Below are positions 1 to 5,392 of a stretch of DNA of 34,612 nt, piece by piece. The stretch comes from Desulfosporosinus sp. (GTDB taxonomy: Bacteria > Campylobacterota > Campylobacteria > Campylobacterales > Arcobacteraceae), in contig DYPS01000007.1 in NCBI GenBank assembly GCA_020719775.1, positions 13,920-48,531 on the forward strand. The letters are read 5' to 3'. A program made the position numbers and the translations under genes. The notes beneath the pieces are model-generated. The model saw nothing but the letters and a program-made list of their open reading frames with translations, did no database searches and was not told the DNA's origin. The number at the start of each line of letters is the position of its first letter. Position 1 is the stretch's first letter.

Positions 1-846
1 CTATATTTCATCACTATTATTCTATTTCAATAACTATTCAATATTCGTATTTATCCTATAATAAACTTAGTTTTGTTTTGGAAAAAATATCATCAATTTT
101 GAATTCATTGCTGTTCAATCATTTTTTAAAAAAATTAAAAAAAAGGAAAATATTAAAAATTTCATTCCTATACAAAAATATTTTCAATTAATAAATTGTA
201 TTTGAACTATAAACCATCCAAAAAGTTGTAAATTAGCCTAAATAGAAATATGATCAAACATTTGCTTTTATTTTCGGATTATTACCTTTTTTGAATTAAA
301 TAAAAAATTTAGAATTTACTAATATAATTCTATAAATATTAAAGATTACAACAGATTGTAATTGCCGCAAGCTTATTAAATTTAATTTCCATCTTAAATA
401 TAATAATTATGCTGCAATTTGACATTTTCATAAAGAATAATCTTCCGATTAAAAAATACAGTTTCTATTGTTTAGCAATCAATATTTACGTTTGCCCAAA
501 TAATTCTAAATTAAATTGAATTAAATAAAAAGAGTATTTAAAATATATAAATAAAAGCTAATAGCAGAGATTCTACTTTGATCACATTCGAACCCAAATA
601 TATTCCCTGATTTACCTGTTTATTTCGCACACACCGTAAATATTATTCTTTTATGAGTAACCTTATAATGAGTTCCAAACAACAGTTTCAAAAAGGAATA
701 GTTTTAAAAATTATAAAAATAAGGCTCTATCTTTTAATTGTAATTTCGATGTTGATAATTTATCAAAATGAAAAAGAATATAAACATATTTATCTAAAAA
801 TATTTGGCAATAAGCAAAGTCCCTTTAATTAATTTTTATAATATAA
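1..846. other. AT-rich non-coding stretch upstream of first gene
   Basis: No convincing gene. The composition is extremely AT-rich with long A and T runs. A 66-codon frame (653-850) ends inside the start codon of the next gene, but with TGA as the only stop such frames are expected by chance. I see no RNA gene or repeat here. Confidence 0.5.
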
Positions 847-2408
847 ATGAAAAAAAGAAGAAATTTTACAATCGTAAATCATAAAGAACATAAAAAATTG
901 ACCTTAGAAAGGCCCAACGATAAAAAATAAAACATCGGTATTCCATTTCAGGAGAAAGAAAAGATAAAAATAAAAACATAAAATATTTAGATCAAACAAT
1001 CTAAAGACAATATCGACACGAGAACATCCAGCAAATTGCAAAATATACTGCAAAATGTTAGTTAAAACAAAAGAAGGACAAGTTTTTCATAAAGATTTGC
1101 AAATCCAAATCCAAAAAATATACATAGATAATAAACCAAACGCTCTAGCTTCTCCATTCATTTACTTAAATAAAGCACTTCCCTTCATTTAAAACAAATT
1201 AATAATCATTAAATATCATAGGCGGCAAGTAATTTATCAGAAAACAATCACGCTGATAGGTCCATAAGATAATTTACCATGTATTTGATCAGTAAAATGT
1301 ATCTCTTTCGATTAAGCCCATCTTCTTACGAAATCAGCCAAGAACAATTTCAGAATTTAGTCAAATCATTAGTTTTACTTTCACTTAGAGGCACAAACAA
1401 ATAATCCTCTATATTTGCAGATAGTGATGAGAATTAGCATTAAATCAAGAAAAAGTTGAGATTAATTGTTCAGTAGGAGAAAACAAAACAGTTAAAACTA
1501 AAAACAGCAGCAGTTATCTTTCAGTATAGTGCTTTAAATTTTAATGCGGATAAATAAACATAAAAAATGAAATTATGCAAACTAATAAGTGAGAAAGAAC
1601 AGCTAAACATTCGAATAAATAATCTAAAATAAGTTGAAGTATAAATAAATAAGAGAGTAAAAATTCTTTAAACCTAATTAACCAATAAAAAAAATATATT
1701 CTTTTAACTTTAGAAAAGTAATAATCTAAAAACTTAAAAATTGTGTTAGTTACAAAGCAAAGTCATCAAAATGTAACAATAATTATTGACCATTAAAGAA
1801 AGAGAACAATAAATTTACAGTTTCGTTCAAAAGCAAGAAACTAAAATTTTGCTGAAATAAATTAGTTAAGAATTCAAAGATATATAAGCATAAATTTACG
1901 ATTATGCAGCTTATTTACAGGCCAACTAAATGGCCACAAATCCTTTGTATTAGCCGCACCCTTTTTAATAAATGTAAAAACTTCTAAATTTATAACTGAA
2001 AGCTGTAAACTAGTCAATTATGCATAGCAATGAATTAAAAGTAGATCATAAAATAATGAGAGATATGATATCTAAAACAACGAATTTTTATCACAAAAAG
2101 GTAAGTAAAATACTATTTAGGATTTGTAAATGTCGAAGCTGATCTAATTTAAAACCAAATGTATTTGCTAATTCGTAAAAAAAATGAAAAAATGGCTAAA
2201 GAATTGGGAGTTCAAACAATAATTTTTAGCTAATCTTCGAAGTTAATTTGCATACGATTCAAAAGTATTATTTTAAAAATTCGATTAATTGACTTATAAA
2301 TAATTGTGCTTTGATTGTGGAAAGCAAATTCGTTAGTAAATAAAAGTTCTTGGTGTTGGTTTAACAAAAATATAAGAAAATTACAAAATGGGCAACTTTT
2401 TTTATTGA
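847..2408 (+). CDS. Coiled-coil protein, tandem paralogue copy 1
   Basis: Spliced product of 513 aa, not recognised. One frame with TAA/TAG as Gln runs from the ATG at 847; one 20-nt intron (2101-2120, phase 0) is needed to avoid a TGA just downstream. The N-terminal third is basic and Asn/Gln/Ser-rich. The middle (about residues 190-350) is Lys/Gln/Glu-rich and probably coiled coil. The C-terminal part is the best conserved relative to the downstream copy: a YLQxNQMAxNP motif, an HPF motif, KKMKKWLxNWE and the terminal block IQENYKMGNxFY. A CxxC pair (CFDCGKQ) lies near the end. The start is chosen because MKK(x)5-8NHxEHxKL at the N-terminus aligns with the second copy. A structural or cytoskeletal role would be a guess. 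Confidence 0.8.
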
Positions 2409-3055
2409 ATGATTCAATCATTAATTTATTTTAAGTACATAGACTGAACAACATTAATTAATTGTATTTAATTAAATAATCAATATTTATTCAGCAAGAG
2501 TGCAACTTTGCATATTTTTAATTCATTGCTTATTCTAGCAAAAATTGTAAACTCTAACGATGGAAGAATTTATATTTTGAACAAAAATAAAAATAATAAA
2601 CTCATCGTGAGAATGACTTTGCCTGTATTAGTGAAATCATTATGATAAATATCATTGATTAGTTTTAATCTTTAAAATAGTAACAAATATAATTCATAAA
2701 GACGAAACAAATATAGAAAAATATTGGCTAACACAATATTAAGCAAGATTTCGACAATTTTAAGCAGACAGGCTACAGTAATATTCTTGTCAGATCTGAA
2801 AAAAAACAATTGCAACAATCATAGTTCAAAGCACAGTTTTTTATTTTTTTGAACTTAGATAAATTACTTCTCCAATTAATAATAAACCTAATCGTTTTCA
2901 ATTTAAATTATGGGTAATTGCTCAGTTATATCAGCAAATGCTTTAATTTGCATTTATCGTCTAACTTCAGTTCGTAGTGACTATTTATATGATATTAATG
3001 CTTCAAATATTTATATTCATCCTGTCAATTCATATAATAAAAAAGGAAGAAATTT
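2409..3055. other. Spacer between the tandem paralogues
   Basis: 647 bp of AT-rich DNA between the two paralogues. A 50-codon open frame (2910-3059) ends in the start codon of the next gene and is probably fortuitous. I find no RNA gene, repeat or mobile element. Confidence 0.5.
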
Positions 3056-4647
3056 ATGAAGAAGGGTAACAATTTGATTATTCAAAATCATAACGAACAT
3101 AGAAAACTAGTCTTAGTGAGACTCAATTAAAAATAACCCAGTAAAAAGATAGAAGAATATTGCAAAAATACTTTAATATTGGGAAAAGTGCAAAATAAAT
3201 AGGACTAAAATAAAAAATAAACCATTGAAGAAAAAATATAAGAAAGAATGGGCAAAAATATAATCAAAAAAATCATTAGAAGAAAATCAAGTTTAGATTT
3301 GCGTATTTTAACCTAAAATAATTAAAAAAATAAAATAATATTTGCAAAGAATTCAATAAGAACTAACTCACTTCAAAAAGACACATAGCATTCAATGTCG
3401 CCAATCAATAACATGGCGAAATCCTTTATTGGTTCATTATTTGATTTTACAACATCACACAGCTGCAATGAGATCTAAGAATTGATAAAGGAGTTAATTA
3501 AGCAGATGATTCAGCAAATGTTTCTATATCAGTCAAGTTCGGTCACATACATTATTAAAAAGGAAAGGTTTCATTAAATTATTAAATATTTGATATAAAC
3601 CTCTTATTCATAAAAAAAATGGGAAGGCAAAAATAAAGCATAAAATAAAGATAGGATAATGGATGTGATGAGTAAAATTAGTAAATTTGGCAGTAATTGT
3701 CGATTTAAGGACAAATCTAATAGATTGGTGTATTAAGCGAAAACAGTGTCGATTCAATACAGTTCTCAGCAATTTAATAAATAAAAAATAAATAATACGA
3801 AATAGTACTAATAAATGTTAAAAAGCAAAGGATAAATATAAAAGTAAATAATGAAATTGACCTAAATACGAAACAGCATAAAGTCATAATACAATTATCT
3901 TCAATAAAGCAAAGTAGAAGAAGAACGAAAATCATGTGAGTTGTAACAAAGCAACAAAAGATAAACTTAAAAATACAATAAGCTAATAAAAGATATCAAT
4001 AAGTTAGAAATGGAAATGCAGACAATAACAAAAAAGAAATAGGAAATCATGAACTTTGTCTGCAAACAGTAGAGTAAACAAATATTAAAATAAGTCAGCA
4101 GATAGTATAAAAATATTTAATCTGATTTATTCTAATATGCGGTCTACCTACAATCCAATTAAATGGCCAACAACCCCAATTTCGAACTACATCCCTTCCT
4201 TTAAATGGAAAAACAATTGCTATAATAAATCAAAACCACCAATAAAAACATCATACAAAATTAATCTCTATCCTTACAAATCAAATAAAAATAGATGAGA
4301 GATATTATTATCAAAATTGTTGATTTTTACAAAAAAAAAGTATGACATATGTGATGTAGGATTCAGATATGATAACCCTTATGAATTTTAAAACTAAGTA
4401 CATACGATAATATGTCGAAAAAATGAAAAAATGGCTCAGTAACTGGGAATTGAAACAAGAATTTTTAAATAATTTAAGGAAATAATTTGCTGCAGATACA
4501 GTAATTATGAATGAACTTTTTTAGAAATTATCAGACATCCATTTGTGTGAAAATTGCAAATAAAGCAAAGATGAAGTTGCAGATTAATTGATTTCTCATT
4601 TTTCCAAAATTTAGGAAAATTACAAAATGGGAAATTCATTTTATTGA
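3056..4647 (+). CDS. Coiled-coil protein, tandem paralogue copy 2
   Basis: Spliced product of 523 aa, a diverged duplicate of the gene at 847-2408 in the same orientation. Homology is clear at the N-terminus (MKK, then NHNEHRKL), in the coiled-coil core (KYNKLIKDINKLEMEM, then IMNFVCKQQ) and above all in the C-terminus (YLQSNQMANNPNFELHPF, KKMKKWLSNWELKQEFL, IQENYKMGNSFY). A single 20-nt intron at 4340-4359 (phase 0) sits at the same protein position as in copy 1, just after a Lys run and before Asp. Unspliced, its second codon would be TGA. A CxxC pair (LCENCKQ) lies near the C-terminus, as in copy 1. The middle is rich in Lys, Gln, Ile and Asn. Function unknown. Confidence 0.8.
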
Positions 4648-5392
4648 TCAATATTATTATTATTTTGATAAAATCTGGAGTTGGATTTAACTTTCAAATA
4701 GAATTAGAAGAGTTGATCATTTTTTAATTGAGGCAAAAGAAAAAATGAAACATTTTATTAATGAAACCTGCTATCAATGAAACAAAACTTAATAATTTGA
4801 TTTATTAATTTTACTTATATTTTTGAAATAAAGATAATTGTAATATGTTTATATTGTTTTGTTTCAACAGCAAAAGAAGTTCAATTACTTTGGAAAAAGC
4901 AGAATTATTATCAAAAACTATTTCGTTTAAGACAGTCTTGAAATTTAATTCACCTAAACAATTTCAAAGAGAATATGGAGTGAGACATAAAATTAATGCA
5001 TAAAGTCATAAATCATATTAATAGGACAATTATATTTTTAGATTTAACAAAAATAGAAAACAAAATAAAAAGTACCAATCCATTTAAAATGGTTTAAATA
5101 TTTTAATATTCTATATTATTGATAAATTAAATTAAACTAACAGCGCTTATGTAAATAATTGTAAATTATTTTTAAAACAAACAAATATCTTGAAAATATA
5201 TATATACATCAATAAATTATTGCTTATGCTAAATATAGAAACCAAATAATTTAATTCATTTTTTAAGTAAAACTTAACAAAAAACTTCAATTAGTGCTTA
5301 GCTTGATTTTATTTTATATTTGACTTTGTTTTGGCGGTTACTATGATTGAATGTCGGAAAATAGATTTATTTTGCTCAAAATCAATGCATAA
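4648..5392. other. Spacer after the tandem paralogues
   Basis: AT-rich spacer whose only content of note is the doubtful frame at 4845-5306. No RNA gene or repeat recognised. Confidence 0.4.
4845..5306 (+). CDS. Doubtful open frame, possible relic
   Basis: A 153-codon frame starting at ATG 4845 and closing with TGA at 5304. The first 80 or so residues (for example ITLEKAELLSKTISFKTVLK, then QFQREYGVRHKINAQSHKS) have a protein-like composition. The second half is Ile/Leu/Asn/Lys-rich, as expected of translated AT-rich spacer. With only TGA as stop, a frame of this length in such DNA is not improbable by chance. It could be a small gene, the eroded end of one, or nothing. Confidence 0.2.

Follow-up and report, generated by a model that had tools for sequence, protein, structure and literature searches.

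The two adjacent genes studied here, named A and B, are probably ancient tandem duplicates in a ciliate macronuclear genome, which form part of a gene family with three or more members, carry an intron older than the duplications that obeys a genome-wide 20-nt rule, and encode coiled-coil scaffold proteins. The parts of this explanation are held with different degrees of confidence, as described below.

Results

Origin of the window

The window, that is, the whole stretch of 34,612 nucleotides analysed, makes up the right-hand side of a contig of 48,531 bases (G000:C214:13920-48531). The assembly to which this contig belongs, of 2.85 Mb and 228 contigs, had received prokaryote ratings of 100% completeness and 0.32% contamination. 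The (CCCCAA)n telomere repeat was observed at the start of contig C214, and exact telomere repeats (136 + 119 in the assembly) were located on many contigs, often at both ends. When 10 contigs were translated whole or nearly whole, code 6 gave open reading frames (ORFs) of 500-1660 codons, whereas the longest ORFs under the standard code were mostly short, although contig C6 yielded one of 1440 codons with that code as well. The genes on C214 include those for CFAP65, GH38 mannosidase, PP2A-B56, asparagine synthase, and LETM1. Because of the C4A2 telomeres, the long code 6 ORFs, and CFAP65 and the other eukaryotic genes on C214, the window is assigned to a ciliate macronuclear chromosome with a telomere cap, which was placed in one bin with a bacterium; in its code, TAA and TAG stand for glutamine and TGA is the stop codon. 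The ciliate genetic code that had been read for A and B from their letters is supported as well, the frames of both genes being open under code 6.

Dozens of telomere-bearing ciliate contigs, 6 to >48 kb in length, were present in the assembly (e.g. C2, C5, C6, C8, C29, C48, C59, C76, C214, and C216); this ciliate share is a part of the ciliate genome. An MreB-like gene on contig C21, whose frame contains no stops, is consistent with the bacterial component of the assembly. Searches for SSU rRNA with a bacterial model and a universal primer, and for methanogen MCR, gave no hit. An Illumina adapter sequence, GATCGGAAGAGCACACGTCT, opens contig C2 (positions 1-20).

Homology of genes A and B

The features of the two genes are listed in Table 1.

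Table 1 Features of genes A and B, with positions counted from the first base of the window.
Feature	Position	Strand	Basis
Gene A (ATG at 847, TGA ending at 2408; 513 aa)	847..2408	+	
Gene A exon 1: 418 codons, with a motif at the N-terminus, a variable central part, and a predicted coiled coil	847..2100	+	Code 6 open frame, full-length homology to B
Gene A predicted intron GTAAGTAAAATACTATTTAG: 20 nt, phase 0, A at position 15	2101..2120	+	Frame restoration, alignment; genome-wide rule obeyed
Gene A exon 2: 95 codons + TGA; conserved C-terminal region	2121..2408	+	51% identity to B exon 2, homologous to C
Gene A CxxC motif (C481, C484)	2307..2318	+	Kept in A, B, and C
Gene B (ATG at 3056, TGA ending at 4647; 523 aa)	3056..4647	+	
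Gene B exon 1: 428 codons	3056..4339	+	Code 6 open frame, homology to A
Gene B predicted intron GTATGACATATGTGATGTAG: 20 nt, phase 0, A at position 15	4340..4359	+	Frame restoration, alignment; genome-wide rule obeyed
Gene B exon 2: 95 codons + TGA; conserved C-terminal region	4360..4647	+	Homology to A exon 2 and C
Gene B CxxC motif (C491, C494)	4546..4557	+	Kept in A, B, and C

BLASTP aligned the A and B proteins over their full length with 175/526 identities (33%; E = 1e-55), and the Smith-Waterman score of the whole proteins corresponded to Z = 46 against 500 shuffles. An earlier sequence-only reading, which had described adjacent same-strand paralogues, thus had the coordinates right, and the possibility that the shared motifs were no better than chance is answered by an alignment score well above it. 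Each region also scored above its shuffles, with Z = 10.5 over the first 30 residues, 8.0 over residues 31-240, and 11.9 over residues 100-330. The identity per 30-aa block reached 50% at the N-terminus and 43-63% over the last 180 residues, whereas most blocks in the middle had 17-33% and one had 7%; the middle therefore retains weak yet significant homology and has not diverged almost fully, as had been stated. Among the C-terminal motifs listed in that reading, KKMKKWL reads EKMKKWL in B, so that the shared form is [KE]KMKKWLxNWE. Taken together, A and B are almost certainly ancient, strongly diverged tandem duplicates that are homologous from end to end.

A third paralogue and the common intron site

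A search with a profile of A and B revealed a third paralogue, C, which the sequence-only reading had missed. It lies on the minus strand of another contig of the same assembly (C216, 46555-48035) and is subtelomeric, with its ATG ~190 nt from the telomere repeat. Gene C encodes 487 aa, with 392 codons in exon 1 and 95 codons in exon 2, and its predicted intron, GTATATTTTTCATTATTAAG, is 20 nt long and has the alignment column and phase of those in A and B. Exon 2 of C shares 35% identity with that of A (E = 7e-12). Against shuffles, the whole-protein Z was 11.7 for A-C and 8.5 for B-C, and the signal came mainly from exon 2, exon 1 alone being barely above chance in pairwise comparison with A and B (Z = 3.5 and 1.7, respectively). 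All three genes could be aligned above shuffled controls and share the intron position and phase; by these sequence comparisons, they represent a family of at least three predicted proteins of ~490-525 aa. No further copy was detected in the assembly, which contains part of the ciliate genome. Gene C adjoins a gene of the GH5 (cellulase) family in the subtelomeric region of C216.

In each of the three genes, the single predicted intron is in phase 0 and in the same alignment column, and the first conserved W of the W-x3-W pair follows 24 residues later. This confirms the previous claim of one 20-nt intron at the same codon boundary in A and B. Frame and alignment indicate that the 20-nt segments would be removed by splicing. 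Since the three paralogues have the site in common, the intron appears to be older than the duplications, and the ancestral site proposed for A and B gains support from C. As for the internal positions, it had been noted that the A and B introns mostly differ. They do differ at 8/14 free positions, but the agreement at 6/14 is exactly that between unrelated introns of the genome (mean 6.08, sd 1.9).

Genome-wide 20-nt intron rule

A gene-finding model was applied to ~260 kb of ciliate DNA, with the intron length left free between 15 and 60 but with lengths near 22 and GTA slightly favoured. It predicted 48-50 introns, 33 of which were exactly 20 nt (33/48); these had A at position 15 (A15) in 33/33 cases and a GTA start in 32/33. 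With no length or motif preference and three different penalties, 20-nt introns made up 25/53, 17/30, and 13/19 of the predictions, and A15 was present in all of them. Among the remaining lengths in these preference-free runs, several equalled 20 nt plus whole codons (35 and 41), as expected of over-extended calls. Furthermore, when the pattern GTA..A(L-5)..AG was counted without gene models, 267 occurrences were obtained at L = 20 versus 88-149 at each other L from 14 to 35; with pyrimidines required at two further positions, the counts were 138 at L = 20 versus 15-34 elsewhere. The fixed positions are GTA, A15 (without exception among the 20-nt introns called), position 13 with its bias towards pyrimidines, and AG. 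We are thus highly confident that nearly every tiny intron that can be detected here has a length of 20 nt and the pattern GTA-N11-A-N3-AG, in which A15 may be the branch point by analogy with Stentor.

Because the 20-nt length is genome-wide, its sharing by A and B is not gene-specific; it is a property of the spliceosome and not of these two genes. The pair had been put forward as a natural test that length, not sequence, is under selection. With a spike at L = 20 only, the pair adds little to such a test, and the sequence is not free of selection either, as GTA, A15, the pyrimidine bias at 13, and AG are constrained as well. What is constrained genome-wide is the length together with the fixed splice and branch positions, the rest being free; the A/B pair illustrates this rule and does not test it.

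Selection and base composition

Between A and B, pN was 0.43 and pS was 0.71. The dN/dS comparison recommended with the sequence-only reading was carried out and was informative in part. Exon 2 gave a dN/dS of ~0.18 with dS near saturation, and purifying selection is visible there. The middle was uninformative with its synonymous sites saturated; the A/B dS was ~2.2 overall and infinite in part, at which level dN/dS is no valid test of positive selection.

A GC-poor block (window 1-5300, 21-26% versus ~30-37% in most of the remainder of C214) coincides with A and B. The GC content at third codon positions (GC3) of the two genes was 0.27-0.30, which is normal for the genome (0.264, sd 0.035). 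The low GC is due to the amino-acid composition.

Features of the predicted proteins

AlphaFold2 (AF2) modelled exon 1 of B as a single long helix (residues 237-368; pLDDT ~88 over 260-330) with low confidence elsewhere, and exon 2, at low confidence, as a helix (2-61), a short turn with the CxxC, and a second helix (67-92). The mean pLDDT was 53 for exon 1 and 66 for exon 2, so the models are weak outside the central helix. A periodicity of 3.5 residues was significant in B only (p = 0.014; 0.06 in A and 0.18 in C). W-x3-W, KQ, NLR, FA.D, CxxC, KI, NYK, and G are among the elements invariant in A, B, and C.

The family had been called unrecognised, and this was borne out, as no match was found in Pfam, NCBIfam, PDB, GTDB contigs, or viral contigs. 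For the GTDB and viral contigs, an explicit degenerate DNA pattern was added to the back-translated patterns, which may miss glutamines encoded by TAA or TAG. Foldseek found nothing with E below 1 for the exon-1 model, which is of low confidence. In the zinc hook of Rad50, a CxxC lies at the turn of a helical hairpin beside a coiled coil. The CxxC of A, B, and C is likewise modelled at a helical-hairpin turn next to a predicted coiled coil, which is a likeness by analogy only; unlike Rad50, the three proteins have no ATPase and have a predicted short second helix, and they gave no Pfam match to the Rad50/SMC families, among which they are accordingly not placed. Based on the models, we tentatively suggest that A, B, and C could be dimeric coiled-coil scaffolds with a conserved C-terminal interaction region, a role that we consider possible and rather less than probable.

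Discussion

The most plausible course of events is that the intron was present before the duplications and was inherited at one site by A, B, and C. Its free positions would then have been randomised, while the geometry imposed by the spliceosome (5' splice site, branch-point A, and AG) would have preserved the length and the fixed positions. With less certainty, the central helix of ~130 residues may form a dimeric rod, the C-terminal region (a W-x3-W helix, CxxC at a turn, and a helix ending in NYK[ML]G) may bind a partner common to the family, and the fast-evolving N-terminal half may have been released to diverge between copies.

Other explanations were weighed against this one. Selection on length at this locus, by which A and B would hold their introns at 20 nt as a gene-specific or regulatory feature while the sequence drifts, agrees with two 20-nt introns at one site whose internal positions are randomised; however, unrelated genes have the same 20 nt and A15 throughout the genome, and the spike at L = 20 refutes a locus-specific origin, to which we leave hardly any probability. 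It is similarly improbable that either copy or both are pseudogenes in decay, or AT-rich germline-limited sequence that was retained, the homology being a remnant of older genes. The GC-poor block, at 24-26% where most of C214 has ~33%, might suggest this, but both frames remain open over >510 codons, GC3 lies in the normal range of the genome, and pN is lower than pS, and this candidate was rejected on those three grounds.

A less remote alternative, although still an unlikely one, is a rapidly evolving and possibly subtelomeric family engaged in an arms race or in cell recognition (e.g. mating, surface, or symbiont interaction), driven by positive selection, instead of a scaffold. The strong divergence of the N-terminal half and the tandem and subtelomeric placement of the copies would be in line with it. 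Against it, the saturated synonymous sites mean that the middle offers no test of selection, and only three copies occur within the sampled part of the genome. Tandem duplication of a putative coiled-coil scaffold gene that already had its intron remains our preferred explanation.

Nearly invariant intron lengths have been reported in other ciliates. The introns of Stentor coeruleus are 15-16 nt, and the 15-nt ones have their branch A at position 10 (PMC9505925). The present introns resemble them in the GTA start, the A located 5 nt before the intron end, the T-rich surroundings of this A, and the near-invariant length (PMC9505925), and one prevailing length (20 nt) together with an A at an invariant distance of 5 nt from the 3' end would place them in the Stentor-type length-locked class; they differ in being 20 nt instead of 15-16 nt, with 5 nt more between the 5' splice site and the putative branch A, and the genetic code is another one. 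In Chaenea vorax, 94% of the introns are 16 bp (PMC13096750). One dominant intron length and a fragmented macronuclear genome are common to both ciliates, whereas Chaenea has 16-bp introns, C4A2T telomeres, standard stops, and gene-sized chromosomes (PMC13096750), and the present ciliate has 20-nt introns, C4A2 telomeres, TAA/TAG as glutamine, and multi-gene chromosomes of 6 to >48 kb.

Introns with a spread of lengths are known from Loxodes (mode 17; PMC11441545), Nyctotherus (21-29 nt; PMC2633312), Paramecium (mode 25; PMC5014332), and P. bursaria (15-100, median 24 nt; PMC12862383). Those of Paramecium and Nyctotherus are likewise tiny GT-AG introns at conserved ancient sites (PMC5014332, PMC12862383, PMC2633312), but no single length is locked in them as it is here. 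A literature search, which covered few subscription papers, found no ciliate paper on 20-nt or 20-bp introns, and this is weak evidence of novelty.

Taken together, we lean slightly towards the view that this ciliate has a spliceosome accepting essentially one intron length (20 nt, branch A15), which would add another discrete locked length to the 15-16 nt of heterotrichs and Chaenea, with a Stentor-like 3' geometry and a span from the 5' splice site to the branch point that is 5 nt longer, and that its genome carries a possibly lineage-specific coiled-coil family with an intron site older than the duplications. An assembly rated as a 100% complete and 0.3% contaminated prokaryote can contain dozens of eukaryotic chromosomes. 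The trio of A, B, and C provides a small worked case in which a homologous intron site has survived two duplications while every free position was randomised. If the locked length differs among ciliates (15, 16, and 20) at an equal distance from the branch point to the 3' end, the span between the 5' splice site and the branch point would have to be the variable part.
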